From a virus: a stretch of 26,975 bases of DNA. The notes under the pieces were generated by a model, which saw nothing but the letters and a program-made list of their open reading frames with translations, had not been told where the DNA came from and searched no databases. Shown here one piece after another: positions 5,619 through 25,719 of this stretch. The stretch spans positions 1 to 26,975 of IMG/VR virus record IMGVR_UViG_3300037041_000528; one strand, written 5' to 3'. The first letter of the stretch is position 1; every line of letters starts with the position of its first letter. A program made the position numbers and the translations under genes.

Positions 5619-6779
5619 ATGTTCAAACGCACAACTGCCATAAACAAATTACTTAAATTATCCAAACGCAAACGGATAGTGCAGGGTGGCACAAGTGCAG
5701 GAAAGACATTTGGTATATTGCCGATACTTGTTGACTATGCAACTAAGAACGCCAAGAGTGAGATAAGTGTAGTAAGTGAAACCATTCCACATTTAAGAAG
5801 GGGTGCCATTAAAGACTTTCTTAAGATAATGGATTGGACTGGCAGGTATATAGATGCCAATTGGAACAAGACTTTACTTACTTACACCTTTGCCAATGGT
5901 TCCTTTATTGAGTTCTTTAGTGCAGACCAAGAGGCAAAGTTAAGGGGGGCAAGAAGGCACATCCTATATATTAATGAGGCCAACAACTTAACCTTTGAAG
6001 CCTACCATCAATTAGCCATAAGAACAAGTAAGCACATCTGGTTGGACTATAACCCAAGCCAAGAGTTCTGGGTGCATAGTGAAGTGCTAAAGGAAGATGA
6101 TGCCGAGTTAATTATTTTAACCTATAAAGACAATGAAAGTTTAAGTGACACCATTATAAAGGACATTGAATCTGCACAAGAAAAGGCTAAGACAAGTACA
6201 TACTGGGATAACTGGTGGAAAGTTTATGGCCTTGGCCAAGTAGGTAGTGTGCAGGGTACAATCTTTAGTAACTGGCAAACCATAGACACCATACCTACCG
6301 AGGCAAGGTTATTAGGCCTTGGCTTAGACTTTGGTTATAGTGTAGACCCAAGTGCTTGTATAGGCATTTACAAGTACAATGATAGTTATATACTGCATGA
6401 GTTAATTTACCAAAAGGAATTAAGTAATAAGAATATCTATGACCTGATACGCAAAGAGCCGACCATGGTCATATGTGATAGTGCAGAACCGAAGTCAATA
6501 GCAGAACTACAAAGTTATGGCCTTAAGTGTATGGGTGCATTGAAAGGAAAGGATTCAATACTACATGGCATACAACTAATTCAACAACAAAACCTTTTAG
6601 TTACCAAGCATAGTACTAACCTTATTAAAGAACTTAGGGGTTATGTGTGGGCAACAGACAAAGACAACAAACCAACTGGCAACCCAGTTGATATAAACAA
6701 CCACCTTATGGATGCCATGCGTTATGGCTTCACCCATATTATACAAGTCCCAGGAATGGGAAAGTACAGAATACGATAA
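5619..6779 (+). CDS. terL: Terminase large subunit
   Basis: A 386-residue two-domain packaging motor. The ATPase domain has Walker A GGTSAGKT at residues 23-30 and Walker B with catalytic glutamate in HILYINEANN near residues 114-123. An adenine- or coupling-type stretch follows, with LDYNPSQEFW near residue 146. The nuclease domain begins near residue 232 with LGLDFGYSVDPSA (first acidic ligand), continues with VICDSAEPKSI near residue 285 and ends with NNHLMDAMRYG near residue 361 (last acidic ligand). All three acidic positions of an RNase H-like terminase nuclease appear present. The length is compact for the family but complete. The stop overlaps the following start as TAATG. Confidence 0.93.
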   Translation: MFKRTTAINKLLKLSKRKRIVQGGTSAGKTFGILPILVDYATKNAKSEISVVSETIPHLRRGAIKDFLKIMDWTGRYIDANWNKTLLTYTFANGSFIEFFSADQEAKLRGARRHILYINEANNLTFEAYHQLAIRTSKHIWLDYNPSQEFWVHSEVLKEDDAELIILTYKDNESLSDTIIKDIESAQEKAKTSTYWDNWWKVYGLGQVGSVQGTIFSNWQTIDTIPTEARLLGLGLDFGYSVDPSACIGIYKYNDSYILHELIYQKELSNKNIYDLIRKEPTMVICDSAEPKSIAELQSYGLKCMGALKGKDSILHGIQLIQQQNLLVTKHSTNLIKELRGYVWATDKDNKPTGNPVDINNHLMDAMRYGFTHIIQVPGMGKYRIR

Positions 6780-7482
6780 TGATTACAATACAAAAATACC
6801 AAGACCTTTACAATGCCATTAAATTAGGTGGCGACAATGATGTACGAACTGCATACAATGTGATGTCAGTAATTACTGGTAAGCCTATAAGCGAATACAA
6901 ACGCATGAAGTGGGTAGACTTTTTAAAAGAGCAGGAAGGCATAACCATCCCTGACATTAGTAGTTTCCCTGACCAATGGGTAACACAATTTGAAGTGCAG
7001 GGTGAAACTTACTTTGTCAATCAGTATATAACCGATTGGAACACTGAGCAGTTTATATCCATGTCAAGCCTTACCAAACAAAAGGAAGCCATTGTAGATA
7101 ACCTGCATTTAATACTTGCTACCTTGTGTTATAAAAAGAAGCATGAAGATATAACAATGACTGAGTTTAATCGCAGGGCAGAAATGTTTAGGGTATACTT
7201 AAATGTAGACATTGCATATCCTATCGGGTTTTTTTTTGCACTTCTTTTACTGAAATTGTCCAAGCCTACCCAATCCTTTTTAACAAAGAAAAAGAAACAG
7301 AAGAAGAAGAAACAGACTTGGATTGGTTCAGTTCTAAATGGGGTTGGTATGCAACGATTGATAAGGTATTTGCAAAAGAAGATAGGTCTAAGTACAACTA
7401 CTACTTCAAAATGAATGCATATGATTTCCTTAACCACCTTTGCTACCTAAAAGACAAGGCAGATAACACACCAAAGAAATGA
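6779..7482 (+). CDS. Conserved phage protein read through a -1 frameshift (possible tail assembly chaperone)
   Basis: The start overlaps the terL stop (TAATG). In frame zero the reading frame runs to 7414 (211 residues), but after residue about 153 it becomes a lysine-rich, low-complexity tail. A -1 shift on the T run at 7229-7237 instead joins it to a frame that ends at 7482. That gives about 234 residues ending with an acidic stretch and DWFSSKWGWYATIDK ... NHLCYLKDK, which looks like a genuine folded C-terminus. The stop of the shifted frame overlaps the next start as ATGA (7479-7482), as elsewhere in this genome. The N-terminal part (FPDQWVTQFEVQG..Y, then NLHLILATLCY) resembles a family seen in Bacteroidota phages next to tail genes. 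A tail assembly chaperone role, where -1 shifting is known in other phages, is inferred. A miscounted homopolymer is the other explanation. Confidence 0.6.
7229..7237 (+). promoter_or_regulatory. Candidate -1 slippery site (nine T)
   Basis: Nine consecutive T residues follow GGG and precede GCA. In frame zero they are read as TTT TTT TTT, so they contain the slippery heptamer T TTT TTT. A -1 slip gives the frame that ends in ATGA overlap with the next gene. Transcriptional slippage on the T run could have the same result. I saw no obvious downstream hairpin or pseudoknot. Confidence 0.5.
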
Positions 7483-8084
7483 CACTAAGTGAAGAAATAT
7501 TAGAAAGTATTGCAAGTGCGTTAAAGTTATGGGGGAATGCGAATGCCGAAAGTATGCGACAACTACTAAGGCAAAGATTAAAACAAACTCAAACCGAAAG
7601 TGGCCTTGCCCAAAGTATTAAACCAAACAACCCAACTATTAAAGGTGGGGTGGTTAGTATGGCCATAGACTTGAATGATTACTGGATGTATGTTGACCTT
7701 GGTGTAAAAGGCAAACGCAATACATCTGCAGTTTCAACTGGCAGTATACCAACTAAGACCTACACAAATAAGGATTTTCCACAAGGGTTTAAATTTAAAA
7801 CAATGGGCTACCCTGCACAAATGATTACCAACCTGCAGGATTACATTGCCATGAAAGGTATACCTGCAAGGGTAAGCAAAGACCAAAATGGGAATAATGT
7901 AATACAGACAAGTTTTCAAATGGCAGAGTCTATGGCCATAGCAATTAAACTAAAGGGTATTGATGGCACCAAGTTTTATACCGATACCTTTACTAATGAA
8001 GCCTATGCCGAACTAACCACAATGCTAAGTGATATTATAGGCCAAGATGTAGAATTTAAGTTGGTAACTGAACTTAAAAAATAA
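7479..8084 (+). CDS. HK97 gp10-like minor structural protein
   Basis: A 201-residue protein resembling the HK97 gp10 or head-tail joining family. It starts with a helix, MTLSEEILESIASALKLWGN, then has LRQRLKQT and S..LAQSIKP, a beta-rich core with DYWMYVDLGVKGK near residue 66, where gp10 proteins carry a Y.v..G.. turn, and a long C-terminal helical tail. Family members act in head-tail joining or as minor tail proteins. The start codon lies within the stop of the frameshifted upstream gene (ATGA), suggesting translational coupling. About 120 bases of non-coding sequence follow, holding the promoter of the next gene. Confidence is in the general structural role rather than the exact position in the particle. 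Confidence 0.6.
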   Translation: MTLSEEILESIASALKLWGNANAESMRQLLRQRLKQTQTESGLAQSIKPNNPTIKGGVVSMAIDLNDYWMYVDLGVKGKRNTSAVSTGSIPTKTYTNKDFPQGFKFKTMGYPAQMITNLQDYIAMKGIPARVSKDQNGNNVIQTSFQMAESMAIAIKLKGIDGTKFYTDTFTNEAYAELTTMLSDIIGQDVEFKLVTELKK

Positions 8085-9845: not shown

Positions 9846-12800
9846 TGCGAAATGAATTAATAATTGGTGGGTATAGCATAGACACCATTCAGGACTTGGA
9901 TATAAACATAACCAAGGAGATATACAACATTGTTGACCCAAGTAAACGCCAAAGTGATTTTACTAAATCGGTAGAAATCCCAGGGAGCAAGGCCAATGAC
10001 TTTGTTTTTAAATCTTTGTTTGATGTTAACTTTAGCATAAGGAATACTGACCAACTTAACCCAGATTTTAACCCAAGTAAAAAGGCTTCATGTATTTATT
10101 ATCAAGACACCCTGCAACAGATTACTGGTTATTGCCAACTTGATGAAATTAAGGTTTTAAATAATGACCAAGTAATTTATAGCATAACTATTTATGGTAA
10201 GAACATAGACATATTTAGCAAGTTAGCAGACAAGACATTAAATGACCTAACCAGTTTAGGGACTGCGACTTGGAATGATACCGAGATAGTTAATAGTTGG
10301 ACTGCAACTTATAACCCAACCATTAAACTAACTTACCCTGCCTTAGATAGGGGATTAAGTAAGTATGGAGCAAATGGGGATGCAAGGTCAAACTTAAGTT
10401 ACAACTATAATGCGTTCAAACCTTTTCTGTATATAGGCCATATTTTTAATGCAATATTCGCTGAGGCAGGGGTGTCTATAGAGGTATCATCTTTTTTTAA
10501 TACTGCACAATGGCAGAAGTTAATTTTAGAATGCGATGTAACTAAATTCCAACTAAACCAAGCATCAGTAGATGCAAGTCTTGTGGATGGGCAAATTACA
10601 ACTGGGGTAAATGTTTACCCAGTTGCAAATGCAAATGTCGGTAATTTAAGTACTATTTTTAATTCGAGCCAAATAAAGTATAGTGAAGTATTAGACCCAA
10701 GTGGCCAATACAATCCTACAACGGGAACATTTACTAAGTTAGGCAATGGTCCAACAAACTTTGAAGTACAATTATTTGGGTCATTATACAATGGCAGTTT
10801 AACTGCAGGGGAAGTTTACTTTTCCCTAATTAGAAAGTCTGGAAGTAAATATAGTGTAATAGATTCTGCAAGGCATAATGTTAGTGCAGGTGGCACTGGA
10901 TATAACACATTTTTTACCCCAATAACTATTAAGGTAGATTCTTTTCAATTATTAGATGGCGATGAAGTAAGGGTGTGTTTGTCGCACAAAATACTAACAT
11001 CTAATGGTGCAATAGATAACACAAATATTGAATACTACCCTGCTATATTTGGGGGCGATAATTTAAAAGTTTATAAAGATGGGCAAATTGATTACAATGT
11101 AACGTTCCCAATTTGTGATATATTACCACCCATGAAACAGACTGAGTTCCTTATGGGTATATTCAAAATGTTTAATTTGTATATGTCCCCTATTTACGAG
11201 ACTGGTGTAGTAATAGAGCCAAGGGATATATACTTCACAAATGACATAGTAGATTGGACTGACTTATTAGATACAAGCAAAGACTTTACTATAAAGCCTC
11301 AAGGCTTACTTGAAAATAAAGAATTAGTCTTTACTTATGCTGAAAATGGCGATGACCTTAACAAAGCATTTAAACAAAGTACTTCTTTTAATTTTGGATA
11401 TAGGGATTTAATATTTGACAATGAGTTTGTAAAAGAAACCAAGAAAGTTGAAATACCTTTTTGTTTAATTCCGTTACAAAAGGATGACGATAAAAATGTA
11501 TTCATGCGTACCAGATTTGGTGGCATGTCTATAGAAAAATCACCTAAACCAATAATTGCATATTTTGGTGGAATGAAGGCAGGTAGATTAAGATATTGGA
11601 ACTTCAATAACACAATTGCAACTAATTACACAACTTACCCATTTGCTGGACACATCGATGATTTAATTGCACCAAATTATGACCTTGCATTTGATGTTCA
11701 AGATTATTATTTTTACACAACCCCAAATACTTCAGGAGTTACCACAACAAACAATAACCTATACAATCAATTTCACAAATCACAATGGGAACAAATTGGC
11801 AACAAGGATAGTAAGTTAATTGAGGCCTACTTTAAGTTAAGGCCAAACGATATTGCAAACATTGACTTTAGAAAAACATACTGGGTTAAGGACAACCCTT
11901 ATAGATTACTAACTGTTGAAGATTATAACCCTAATGGTGATACTACAACCTTATGTAAACTTTTAAAATTTGCATACCAAGAGGCATTCTACCCAACCAT
12001 AACTGAAAAAATTGGAGGCAACGGACAAGGCGAAAAGGATGGGGGTTACAATACAACTACTAACACAATTAAAAAGGGCATCCTTGCAACTGGTGGCAAT
12101 GTCTTAAACGATAACACTAATGGTATAGTAGTAACGGGCAATGGTAATAATATAGGGGGCGACAATGCTAACATAGTTATATTAGGCGATAACAATACTA
12201 TACTTTCAGGATTAACAGATATTGTTTTAATCAATACAAGTAATGTAACAATAACTGAAAGTGGTGTTCAATACATTGATAACATTAAAGTAGACTTTGG
12301 TACACCAGTAAATGGTTATGTAGTATCTTATGATTCAGTAACTAATTCTGTAAAGTTTACTGCACCAACTATTGGTGGTGATATGTTTAAGTCGGTATAC
12401 GATACGGATGATGATGGAATTGTAGACAACGCAGAAACAATAAATGTAATTGTTAGAAATAGTACTGGTGCCACATTACATAGGGGTAAAATAGTATACC
12501 TAAGTGGTTCAACTGGCAATAGGCCAAATGCGATTCTTGCCCAAGCAAACTCGGAGGCCACAAGTTCAGGAACCTTTGGTGTAGTAATGGATAACATTGC
12601 TAATAACTCCGATGGTAAAGTTTGTGCAGTTGGGACTTTACATAATTTAGATACCCGAACAACTGCTCCAAATCCATTTACTTCTTTTGTTCTTAACGAT
12701 GGTGATATAGTATGGTTAGACCCTGCAACTGCAGGATACATTACTAATATCAAACCATCTGCACCGAATCATGCAGTCAAGATAGGTTATGTCGCAAGAA

Positions 12801-16506: not shown

Positions 16507-18510
16507 ATGGCAAAAACTAAAATTGAAATTGACCTAGTCATTAAAGGTGGCGAAAGTGTAGCACAAGTAGAAAATAAAACCAAAAGCCTTAAGGCTCAAC
16601 TTAAGGAAATGAAGGCTTTACTAATGTCTGGTACCTTAGACAACCAAGCATTTAATAAACTATCAAAAGAAGCAGGTGAACTTGAAGACCGAATTGGTGA
16701 TGTAAGTACAAGGGTTAAAAACTTGGCCTCAGATAGTAAAGGTTTAGATGGTGTAATTAGTTTGGCTCAAGGTTTAGTGGGTGGGTTTAGTGCCGTTCAA
16801 GGTGTAACTGCAATGCTTGGTGACGAAAATGAAGACCTGCAAAAGACCATGGTTAAGTTGCAGGGTTCTATGTCAGCATTGGCAGGGATTCAGGCAGTTG
16901 TCGCTACCCTTAACAAAGAATCTGCTTTTTCCACTAACTTACTTGGTGGTGCATGGACTAAGATGAACAATGCGATGAAGGCCTCTGTTATAGGTGGCAT
17001 TGCAATTTTAGTTACTGCTTTAATTTATGGATTGGAAAAACTTTCCAAGGTAACAAGTGGTGTAAGTTCTGACCAAGAAAAGTATAACAAAGTAATGAAG
17101 GAAGGCCTTGGCGATATGGCTGAGGTCACTAAAAGTATATCCGTAATGTCAAATAGTTTTGACCTTGCAAGGAAAGGTGTAATTAGTAAAAAGGAAGCCT
17201 TGTATGAATACAATAAAAACTTTGGCGAAACTTTAGGAGTTGCCCGTAATGTAAACGAAGCAGAAAAAATATTTAGGGAAAAAACTGAAGCATTCATTAA
17301 GTCAAGTTTACTAAGGGCTGAGGCAACTGCATTATTAAATGAAGCCAGTAAAAAAGGTGTAGAACAAGTAACTGCATCTATGGAAGATAATATTTCTTTT
17401 GGTGCCAAAACATTAAATGTTATAGGTGGTTTACGGAATGGTTTTATATCTTTTCAGGCAGACCAAAGTATTGCACAAGCAGAAGGAACTGCAGAAAGGA
17501 AAAAAATATTACAAGAGGATATAAAATCATTTACTGAAATTGCTAACCAAAAAATAGAAGAGGCAAGAAAAATTGAAAGTGAAAACCAAATAATAAGTAA
17601 GGATGAACAAGAAAGAAAAAAAGATGAAAAGAAAGGTAATGAAGAGGCCTTAAAAAACAAACAAGCATTACTAGAAAAGGAGAAAAAAGCAAGGGAAGAA
17701 TTTGATGCAGATAAACTAAAAAAACAACAAGAATTAAATGAAGTTATTAACCAGTTAAGTAAACAACAAGCCTTAAATAATTTATCTGCATTAGATAAAG
17801 AAATACAAGAATTAAATTGGTCATACGATGAAAAGTTAAAACTTGTGAAAAGTGGTTCTGATTTAGAAAAGGAATTGTTAGCACAAAAAACTTTTGATGC
17901 AACTCAAATTGCAGATAAGTATAGAAAAGATGAAGCAGATAAAACTTTAGCCAATGATAAAAAAATAGCAGATGAAAAAAAGAAAATAAACGAACAAGCA
18001 TTAGCCGACCAAAAAGTTATTGAAGAAGCAAGGATGTCAATTATGAACGATAGTTATATGGTAATAAATAACTTGGGTGAATTAGCAATTGGCCAACAAT
18101 TTAAAAATACTGCAGTTGGTAAATCTTTAGCCTTAACCCAGATTGCAATTGATACGGCAATGGCTATTTCATCTTTGACTAAAAACTCACAAGCCAACCC
18201 AACAAACGCAGTTACTAGTGGGTTATCAGGTATCGCCCAATTTGCTTCAGGTATGATACAAATTACTGGCAATATGTTAAAGGCTAAATCTATTTTAAGT
18301 GGTGGTGGTTCTGCAAGTGGTGGTGGTACAAGTAGTTCAAGTTCTGCAATGGGTGGCGGAAATGTTTCAAGTCAACCACCTAAGTTAGAAACTTTTGAAA
18401 GTAATCGCCCTGCAATGAATCCAAACCAAAGAGTGTATGTTCTTGAAAAAGACATTACAGATAGCCAAGGCAGGGTGGCAAGGATTAGGCATAATGCTAC
18501 TTTAATATAA
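16507..18510 (+). CDS. Tape measure protein
   Basis: A 667-residue protein. The N-terminus (MAKTKIEIDLVIKGGESVAQ, then SLKAQLKEMKALL) is characteristic of Bacteroidota phage tape measures, with long helices and a repeated LSKEAGELEDRIGD pattern. A hydrophobic stretch KASVIGGIAILVTALIYGLE lies at about residues 158-177, as in tape measures that insert into the host membrane. Residues about 330-510 are a long charged coiled coil rich in Lys, Glu and Gln, and residues about 598-620 are a Gly/Ser-rich linker before a short C-terminal tail. At about 0.15 nm per residue the length predicts a tail near 100 nm, which fits a siphovirus-type tail. No lysozyme or peptidase domain is visible. The gene lies after the fibre gene, the reverse of the usual order. 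Confidence 0.85.
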   Translation: MAKTKIEIDLVIKGGESVAQVENKTKSLKAQLKEMKALLMSGTLDNQAFNKLSKEAGELEDRIGDVSTRVKNLASDSKGLDGVISLAQGLVGGFSAVQGVTAMLGDENEDLQKTMVKLQGSMSALAGIQAVVATLNKESAFSTNLLGGAWTKMNNAMKASVIGGIAILVTALIYGLEKLSKVTSGVSSDQEKYNKVMKEGLGDMAEVTKSISVMSNSFDLARKGVISKKEALYEYNKNFGETLGVARNVNEAEKIFREKTEAFIKSSLLRAEATALLNEASKKGVEQVTASMEDNISFGAKTLNVIGGLRNGFISFQADQSIAQAEGTAERKKILQEDIKSFTEIANQKIEEARKIESENQIISKDEQERKKDEKKGNEEALKNKQALLEKEKKAREEFDADKLKKQQELNEVINQLSKQQALNNLSALDKEIQELNWSYDEKLKLVKSGSDLEKELLAQKTFDATQIADKYRKDEADKTLANDKKIADEKKKINEQALADQKVIEEARMSIMNDSYMVINNLGELAIGQQFKNTAVGKSLALTQIAIDTAMAISSLTKNSQANPTNAVTSGLSGIAQFASGMIQITGNMLKAKSILSGGGSASGGGTSSSSSAMGGGNVSSQPPKLETFESNRPAMNPNQRVYVLEKDITDSQGRVARIRHNATLI

Positions 18511-20676: not shown

Positions 20677-21192
20677 ATGCCGTGCTTACTATCAACTGGA
20701 TTCGCCCTTGATTGCCGAGATAGTATCGGTGGTGTAGATGAGATTTACATCGGGGAATTGGAATACTTAAACACTGCTACATTCGCGACAAGTGCAGGTG
20801 CAGTTACTACAATGGCCATGACTGGTGGAAAGAAATTCTACAAGTATGAGTTAAGAAGAAATACTGCAGAGGCTAAGTCTGATAATGCAGGTGAAGTTAC
20901 TTCAGGTAGTGGTTATATCATGCACTCGGTAGAAATGCAATTGGATAAGTTCGATGTTGCTAAAAGGAATGAAATTCGTGTACTTGCACAAAAACCATTA
21001 ATCTTTATTGTTAAAGATAAGAATGATTTGTTTAGTGTATATGGTGCATACAATGGATTAGACCTAACAACTGGAACTGCAGGTACTGGGAAAGGTGCAA
21101 GTGACCTTAATGGTTTTGTGCTAACTTTTACTGGCGAAGAAAAGAACTACCCATTGGGTGTATCGTCTGCAATTGTTACTGCTTTGATTTAA
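20677..21192 (+). CDS. Probable major tail (tube) protein
   Basis: A 171-residue beta-rich protein two bases after the capsid gene. It opens MPCLLSTGFALDCRDSIGGV, a cysteine-containing signature that recurs in Bacteroidota phage proteins near capsid genes. The middle has KFYKYELRRNTAEAKS and MQLDKFDVAKRNEIRVLAQK, and the end has a Gly-rich loop before LNGFVLTFTGEEKNYPLGVS. The size, all-beta character and position fit a tail-tube or similar ring-forming protein, but the family is annotated inconsistently and it might be a head decoration protein instead. A strong terminator follows 18 bases later, so it ends the capsid transcription unit. Confidence 0.5.
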   Translation: MPCLLSTGFALDCRDSIGGVDEIYIGELEYLNTATFATSAGAVTTMAMTGGKKFYKYELRRNTAEAKSDNAGEVTSGSGYIMHSVEMQLDKFDVAKRNEIRVLAQKPLIFIVKDKNDLFSVYGAYNGLDLTTGTAGTGKGASDLNGFVLTFTGEEKNYPLGVSSAIVTALI

Positions 21193-21210: not shown

Positions 21211-21240
21211 AAAGGGAAGTTTAGGCTTCCCTTTTTTTTT
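21211..21240 (+). terminator. Rho-independent terminator after the capsid unit
   Basis: AAAGGGAAG (21211-21219), loop TTTAGG, CTTCCCTTT (21226-21234) forms nine perfect base pairs. The T run extends from 21232 to 21240. It separates the capsid unit from the portal unit. Confidence 0.9.
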
Positions 21241-25025: not shown

Positions 25026-25258
25026 ATAAATTCTTTAATACAATGATAGGTAGTTATATTAAGATATTTCTATCTGCCATTATAATATATTATATTGACC
25101 AAGGAAGTGATTTATTTACTTTTGATTTACAAATGGGCAAGAAATTACTTAGTGTTGGTATAGGCTCATTATTGCCAGTTCTTTACAATGCACTAAATCC
25201 ACACGATAATAGATATGGTAAGAAACCTAAACCAGAACCATTTAAACCTTTATTATAA
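25016..25258 (+). CDS. Small membrane protein, second holin candidate
   Basis: An 80-residue protein with two likely membrane segments: SYIKIFLSAIIIYYI (about residues 13-27) and LLSVGIGSLLPVLYNALN (about 44-61). The tail has NPHDNRYGKK followed by a proline- and lysine-rich end. The second segment and tail (LPVLYNALNPHDNRYG) resemble a small conserved family in Bacteroidota phages that lies before the lysin. A holin or antiholin function is inferred from this place. The neighbouring 59-residue protein would be a possible partner. Confidence 0.55.
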   Translation: MQINKFFNTMIGSYIKIFLSAIIIYYIDQGSDLFTFDLQMGKKLLSVGIGSLLPVLYNALNPHDNRYGKKPKPEPFKPLL

Positions 25259-25262
25259 AAAT

Positions 25263-25664
25263 ATGTTTACGGAACAAGACGGAATACAAGCCCTTAAAGA
25301 ACTTGAAAAGTTAAAGGGTTACGATAGGGCTAAGTTAATTGAAAAGATTCTTAGACTTGAAACAAATCATTTTAAATCTAAACAATATGCATTATCAGGT
25401 AGTGCAGGTATGGAAATGGGTGCTTGGGTTGGCATTGATGAAACTAAATTTACCACCTTTAAAATGAATGATAACCACTTAACTGGTGCCAAAAAAGTAA
25501 GAACTTTTATTAAGTGGAATAATGTTCTGGATTTTTGCCTATATTTGTCAGACTATATTGATAGGCATAAGGGAAATTATGCAAGATGGAATAGCATGAA
25601 TCTAGAACGCCAAGAAATGTACAGAACTAAAGTTGCCAGTATAAGTAATAGAATAATAAAATAA
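25263..25664 (+). CDS. Probable lysozyme/muramidase-like endolysin
   Basis: A 133-residue protein starting at ATG 25263; an in-frame TTG at 25215 would reach back into the preceding gene without support. The stretch LIEKILRLETNHFKSKQYAL contains a helix with an E-T-N-H pattern that resembles the catalytic glutamate region of glycoside hydrolases cutting peptidoglycan. SGSAGMEMGAWVGID follows, similar to lysin proteins of Bacteroidota phages. A helical C-terminal half (YLSDYIDRHKGNYARWNS) completes the domain. No signal peptide is visible, so a holin would be needed to release it. It closes the operon, with a strong terminator 21 bases later. It could also be a virion-associated enzyme. Confidence 0.5.
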   Translation: MFTEQDGIQALKELEKLKGYDRAKLIEKILRLETNHFKSKQYALSGSAGMEMGAWVGIDETKFTTFKMNDNHLTGAKKVRTFIKWNNVLDFCLYLSDYIDRHKGNYARWNSMNLERQEMYRTKVASISNRIIK

Positions 25665-25685: not shown

Positions 25686-25719
25686 AAAAAAGGCCTCACA
25701 GAAATGTGGGGTTTTTTTT
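25686..25719 (+). terminator. Rho-independent terminator at the end of the lysis unit
   Basis: CCTCACA (25694-25700), loop GAAA, TGTGGGG (25705-25711) forms seven pairs including one T-G. It is preceded by AAAAAAGG and followed by eight T (25712-25719). The GAAA tetraloop adds stability. It ends the long structural and lysis region. Confidence 0.9.

Follow-up and report, generated by a model that had tools for sequence, protein, structure and literature searches.

Control of the ratio of two tail proteins by a ribosomal frameshift is a textbook trait of long-tailed phages. The chaperones of the G/GT type bind the tape measure and tail tube proteins and are absent from virions, and the classic genes typically lie directly upstream of the tape measure gene, although this place is not strictly defining. 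Some natural -1 frameshift sites have no stimulator, and lambda-type sites can work with little stimulation. Runs of nine A or nine T are used as sites of transcriptional slippage, including those in IS elements, the A9 run of T. thermophilus dnaX slips at about 50%, and in many bacteria nine is the length from which A/T runs are visibly selected against (PMC1088944).

The DNA analysed here (the window) is a whole stretch of 26,975 nucleotides from a virus (IMG/VR record IMGVR_UViG_3300037041_000528), for which the original prediction had proposed a probable -1 frameshift on nine T in the gene after terL. As judged from the sequences of this gene and its relatives, the gene carries a conserved, apparently programmed recoding site. 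The layout is as predicted: the T9 run is present, the -1 frame is open to 7482, frame 0 becomes a low-complexity Lys-rich tail past the run, and the expected acidic region and aromatic C-terminus of the -1 frame correspond to an acidic linker and a KWGWY domain which are conserved in relatives. The ATGA overlap with the next start was also found where it had been described. The features are as follows.

5619-6779, plus strand: terminase large subunit (TerL) gene, immediately upstream of the T9 gene (phrog_2, E 1.4e-35).
6779-7414, plus strand: frame-0 ORF of 211 aa directly after terL, with an N-terminal domain up to about 7228 and a 61-aa Lys-rich tail.
7229-7237, plus strand: putative T9 slip site, GGG TTT TTT TTT GCA in frame 0, conserved in relatives.
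7231-7237, plus strand: U_UUU_UUU heptamer in the sequence, in register for a -1 ribosomal shift.
7237-7482, plus strand: -1 frame extension of 81 codons and a stop, which encodes the acidic linker and, at the C-terminus, the KWGWY domain.
7479-7482, plus strand: ATGA in the sequence, in which the stop of the -1 frame and the next gene's start codon overlap.
7479-8084, plus strand: next gene, placed by synteny only, by eye like the neck/tail-completion-like genes in loci L111 and L259.
16507-18510, plus strand: probable tape measure protein gene, a weak assignment from length, coiled-coil content and place.

The start ATG of the T9 gene uses the A of the terL TAA stop. Around the run, frame 0 reads CCT ATC GGG TTT TTT TTT GCA (TTTTTTTTT at 7229-7237), and past it the Lys-rich low-complexity tail contains TKKKKQKKKKQTW. 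When one T is read twice, a 234-aa fusion is obtained, with the C-terminus FSSKWGWYATIDK...NTPKK. The -1 frame stop occupies 7480-7482 and the ATG of the next gene starts at 7479, and in many homologues this junction is TAA-ATG rather than ATGA. In most sequences inspected at the family loci, the +1 frame has a stop shortly past the run (e.g. ATCATTTAGG), so products of messages with eight U's would be truncated at once. Other T runs are also present in the window. A second T9 (21232-21240) is intergenic, after ORF 20677-21192, and is preceded by a GGGAAG/CTTCCC hairpin; together they form an intrinsic terminator (21218-21240), unlike the coding T9, and no terminator-like hairpin was found at the T9 of 7229. 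After ORF 25215-25664, which is possibly a lysis-type gene, an inverted repeat followed by GGGG and T8 (25690-25719) is a probable terminator. A T8 at 2556-2563, in frame within ORF 2522-2740, is among the rare long coding T runs of the window.

Relatives were gathered with protein sequence taken solely from upstream of the T run. For the close set, IMG/VR was searched with the first 151 residues, which brought up 12 loci and later 35, and in 35 of 35 close homologues, all on independent contigs, GGG-T9-GCA was exactly kept in frame 0. The N-domain is kept in these relatives, and their -1 frame ends in a conserved C-terminus, KW[GS]WY..ID..FAK.D...FLNHL..L.DK (35 loci). In loci L070 and L071 (62-64% identical), frame 0 ends 42 nt earlier and the -1 domain is retained, so the frame-0 tail is not the conserved part. 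The same T9 layout was found in the isolate genomes of Nonlabens phages P12024S/L, in which gp38 of P12024S follows terL and carries the T9 and the separately annotated gp39 is its -1 frame KWSWY domain, and also in a family member on a 2.6-Mb bacterial contig.

A scan with the whole gp38 gave 63 loci, all with T9/T10, and it was excluded from the counts since the search peptide FFYHLGND overlaps the slip site. A wide scan, with an alignment ending before the site, gave at least 581 relatives, of which 80 were kept, and seven more in bacterial or metagenome genomes. T9/T10 was present in 84 of the 84 site-covering loci (from the best 80 of at least 581 and the seven), the three others lacking coverage of the site owing to two contig ends and one internal deletion (L207). 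Among the matches listed, the KWGWY domain was in the -1 frame wherever the motif was readable. Genome searches added three loci (L265, L266 and L268), all with at least nine T, a genome scan with a narrow alignment gave no matches, and a scan of a marine subgroup gave 78 of 78 loci with the run (77 T9 and one T10). In total, T9/T10 was found in 200 of 200 site-covering loci among the matches listed (35 + 84 + 3 + 78; T10 in five), some of which are near-identical (111 distinct contexts in 119, and 74 distinct stretches in 80), and protein identity between groups goes down to about 30% or less.

Two findings had been named beforehand as speaking against the frameshift, namely a single-frame homologue without a T run and reads with 8 or 10 T at the site. 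The former was sought and not found among the matches listed, and none of the 200 loci listed had a run below nine. A homopolymer indel is an easy mutation, and none fusing the two frames was present among the loci listed. Because T9 is held across about 200 related loci, it looks like a deliberate slippage switch and not an error.

By hhalign, the -1 domain of the window clade is homologous to that of the wide family (probability 98.7%, E 2.9e-16). The N-domains gave no sequence link (hhalign probability 2.6%) and have the same predicted order of secondary structures in both groups (four helices, hairpin, helices), where the window model is of low confidence (pLDDT 56). The window clade and the wide family were linked because the C-domain, the site and synteny agree. 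Of the 179 family loci whose upstream sequence reaches 600 nt or more, 175 have a TerL ORF there. T9 recoding beside terL is common to hundreds of phages; those of known host are mainly phages of Bacteroidota. A whole-protein MAFFT alignment of both groups placed the N-domains (YGFIPNLDEMSFGEY...) on the -1 C-domain (WGWYxSIYALAxGD...); an ancient internal duplication is a possible explanation of this overlay, which was treated as a misalignment and used for no result.

Other genes beside terL were also inspected. In L113 (Elizabethkingia phage TCUEAP1), the gene after terL (2164-2706) is a single ORF whose C-part, GGYNVLDQLSGGDILKYDAISKL, is KWGWY-like by eye, and it is possibly a distant single-frame counterpart. 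The gene after terL in FpV9 looks unrelated by eye. In L269 (Flavobacterium phage 6H; 10000-10927, minus strand), the BFVD match R9VW65 (191 aa) fits the CDS 10352-10927, and past this 191-aa CDS an ORF of about 110 codons, which is not annotated and has no T9, is present in the -1 frame. This phage may use a different frameshift.

We propose that the nine T's make RNA polymerase slip, by which part of the mRNA would carry ten U's. The 10-U mRNAs would be read in the -1 frame past the run and yield the N-domain joined to the KWGWY domain (234 aa), and the unslipped mRNAs would yield a shorter protein with the same N-domain. The two proteins would most likely act as tail assembly chaperones like lambda gpG/gpGT, and the T9 would set the ratio of the two forms. 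Taken as a whole, this explanation, which joins a recoding gene, RNA-polymerase slippage and a G/GT-like chaperone pair, seems to us somewhat better than evenly balanced. For the mechanism itself, we infer slippage by the polymerase rather than by the ribosome and consider it the likelier route on the features of the site. Transcriptional slippage had been listed earlier as an alternative to the ribosomal shift; it holds as a possibility, and its rank has changed, since it now fits better than the ribosomal shift.

The length of the run in relation to codon register carries most of this preference. The run occurs in three registers, xTT TTT TTT Tyy (most), TTT TTT TTT, and GGT TTT TTT TTG. Most members have the first T at codon position 2 (GTT TTT TTT TAY/TGG); it is at position 1 in the window clade, L070 and L261, and at position 3 in L266, and independent register changes are few. 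Runs of 7 or 8 T were absent from every register (200 loci, among the matches listed), although runs this short would still leave the heptamer in register in two of the three cases. The presence of at least nine T across three registers, and never 7 or 8, thus points to selection on length, and because this length is kept in three codon registers, polymerase slippage fits better. For the main register, the residues on either side (V/I/L before, Y/W after) dictate part of the flanking T's, and with the same residues and the codon use of the family, at least nine T would be expected in about 30% (119 loci tested). In the position-1 and position-3 registers, the neighbouring residues do not supply the usual flanking T's, and the run still has nine T. 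Among 419 further ORFs of these phages, T8 was observed once vs 10.5 expected, and T9 or longer was observed 0 times vs 3.4 expected with L111 gp38 set aside, since the one T9 in the count belongs to this very gene.

A programmed -1 ribosomal frameshift, in which the A/P-site tRNA-Phe would slip on U_UUU_UUU as in G/GT genes and the extra T's would stem from the surrounding residues or aid slipping, is the strongest competing explanation, and we give it a substantial but clearly smaller probability. Any T9 holds U_UUU_UUU in register regardless of codon phase, so this route has to be taken seriously, and every homologue among the matches listed has it in register. The residues beside the main register favour T's, and in other phages such a shift is used by tail chaperone genes, in some cases with no clear stimulator (PMC5009743). 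However, no homologue listed has 7-8 T, U_UUU_UUC or another heptamer, though any of these could be used in two of the three registers, and the absence of these sites argues for the polymerase. RNA folding of the upstream and downstream flanks (a scan of pseudoknot-free structures) gave z-scores of about 0 and nothing significant. In consensus folding, pairs were absent in one clade, and the other clade had a helix in which a single pair covaried weakly. By eye, the upstream side showed no Shine-Dalgarno-like stretch rich in purines, and Bacteroidia seldom use Shine-Dalgarno sequences (PMC8710568). With no significant flanking structure in these scans, polymerase slippage seems more likely than the ribosomal shift.

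Regarding function, the original prediction, by which a programmed shift here would extend tail-chaperone-type frameshifting to a gene after terL in a Bacteroidota phage, is supported: recoding beside terL is present and widespread, and the chaperone role is plausible. The position beside TerL, a weak tail PHROG and a weak HK97 fold match suggest a G/GT-like tail chaperone pair, which is our leading guess from sequence and model comparison. Specifically, phrog_166 (tail protein) was weakly matched by 10 of 35 members (best E 8e-4), and among solved structures VIA-align ranked 2ob9, the tail assembly chaperone of HK97, first for the family model (pLDDT 91), with 68 residues aligned at 10% identity, an rmsd of 3.8 and Z 4.1; this match covers only residues 1-74. 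A Z of 4.1 may reflect a common arrangement only and is too low for proof of homology. A tail assembly chaperone was also matched in BFVD (E 0.078), the family had no match in Pfam, and Foldseek against the PDB with the family model gave nothing convincing.

It is also quite possible, though less likely than not, that the recoding is real and the pair has a role other than that of a tail chaperone, such as a neck factor, a terminase-linked factor or one that joins head and tail. The adjacent terL and the absence of a Pfam family would agree with this, as would the place of the gene, which follows terL and is not beside the tape measure gene as is typical of G/GT; about 9 kb of the same tail block lie between it and the probable tape measure gene downstream. 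The latter has the same place as in L111, L113 and L259, and its PHROG matches (phrog_21917/28412) carry no function. In contrast, the weak matches to a tail protein and to the HK97 tail chaperone speak for a chaperone, and so do the tail genes, which come directly after the T9 gene in these phages. In the genomes read, the order after the T9 gene is neck-like, tail, probable tape measure, protease and capsid genes, and family searches with the next gene of the window (7479-8084) gave no match.

The two remaining explanations concern whether recoding takes place at all, and they were weighed using the selection on the two frames, for which synonymous changes were counted pairwise with kinship ignored. 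In the window clade, between the run and the frame-0 stop, 274 of 490 changes were synonymous in the -1 frame (expected 18%) and 73 of 490 in frame 0 (expected 23%). The -1 synonymous fraction was already 0.63 vs 0.22 expected at 9-60 nt from the run start, and it was 0.63, 0.73, 0.86 and 0.96 in successive segments (expected 0.15-0.22). By these counts, selection acts on the -1 frame right from the run, and the Lys-rich tail that frame 0 encodes in the window clade is an unconserved by-product. Two separate genes without a frameshift, with the -1 ORF translated from its own internal start, are therefore very improbable: candidate starts exist (TTG 7318 in the window, and ATG 23663 of the Nonlabens phage gp39, which is annotated so), but independent translation was rejected because the -1 selection starts at the T run, well before them, and the invariant T9 would be left unexplained. 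In clade L132-175, frame 0 is favoured in the first ~17 codons past the run (0.73 vs 0.24 expected) and the -1 frame dominates further downstream (0.79-1.0), and clade L177-223 has the same, weaker trend in the first ~17 codons (frame 0, 0.43 vs 0.20). The frame-0 helix is thus constrained past the run in these two clades, so both products matter there. In many groups, FFLSFRxR/FFCTSF extend the fold in the -1 frame. The alignment of homologues across the run, which had been suggested as a check, found both frames conserved, with the frame-0 helix kept in the sister clades. Sequencing error, assembly error or a decayed pseudogene deserves almost no credence and was ruled out by the conservation of the run: homopolymers are error-prone, but the T9 is shared by the 35 close homologues, the isolate phages and the 2.6-Mb contig and, overall, by the 200 loci, which derive from numerous metagenomes as well as from isolate phages and bacterial contigs, and purifying selection on both frames speaks against a pseudogene.

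We found no description of this T9 site in the open literature searched, and we know of no tail-chaperone-type gene that has been described as decoded at the level of transcription rather than of the ribosome. The site is probably a new variant of tail-gene frameshifting, at the transcription level. The more specific claim that a large group of phages, mainly of Bacteroidota among those with a known host, sets the ratio of two tail-assembly proteins by polymerase slippage on T9 is put forward tentatively, at somewhat less than even confidence. If it is true, host RNA polymerases slip productively on T9, and the annotation of these genes as truncated or split hypotheticals can be explained. For annotation, a simple rule can be used: terL, followed by a T9 gene with the KWGWY domain in the -1 frame.

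Compared with the known systems, the T9 gene has both shared and distinct features. Its direct family members, phrog_32199 and P12024S gp38 and gp39, are annotated as two unrelated hypothetical proteins, and the frameshift is not noted in the P12024S record. For the N-terminal ~74 residues of the family model, HK97 gp13 (2ob9) is the best match, a weak one; the T9 domain is the larger of the two and has a beta hairpin and additional helices. Like dnaX A9 and the 9A/9T sites of IS elements (PMC1088944), the T9 gene has a coding run of nine A/T, two predicted products and the same threshold length; however, slippage in dnaX leads to a shorter product, while the slipped message of the T9 gene would give a longer one, from a T run and in a phage structural block. 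Like lambda gpG/gpGT and its counterparts in long-tailed phages (PMC5009743), the T9 gene has a shared N-domain, a longer product that would be made by a -1 shift, a shift near the end of the first ORF and a place in the tail-gene block. In contrast, the lambda genes lie beside the tape measure gene and use a heptamer such as G_GGA_AAG, whereas the T9 gene follows terL, has an invariant T9/T10 homopolymer and has no sequence family in common with them. The same two-product layout seems to have been moved to a homopolymer which is kept at nine T's across very divergent phages.
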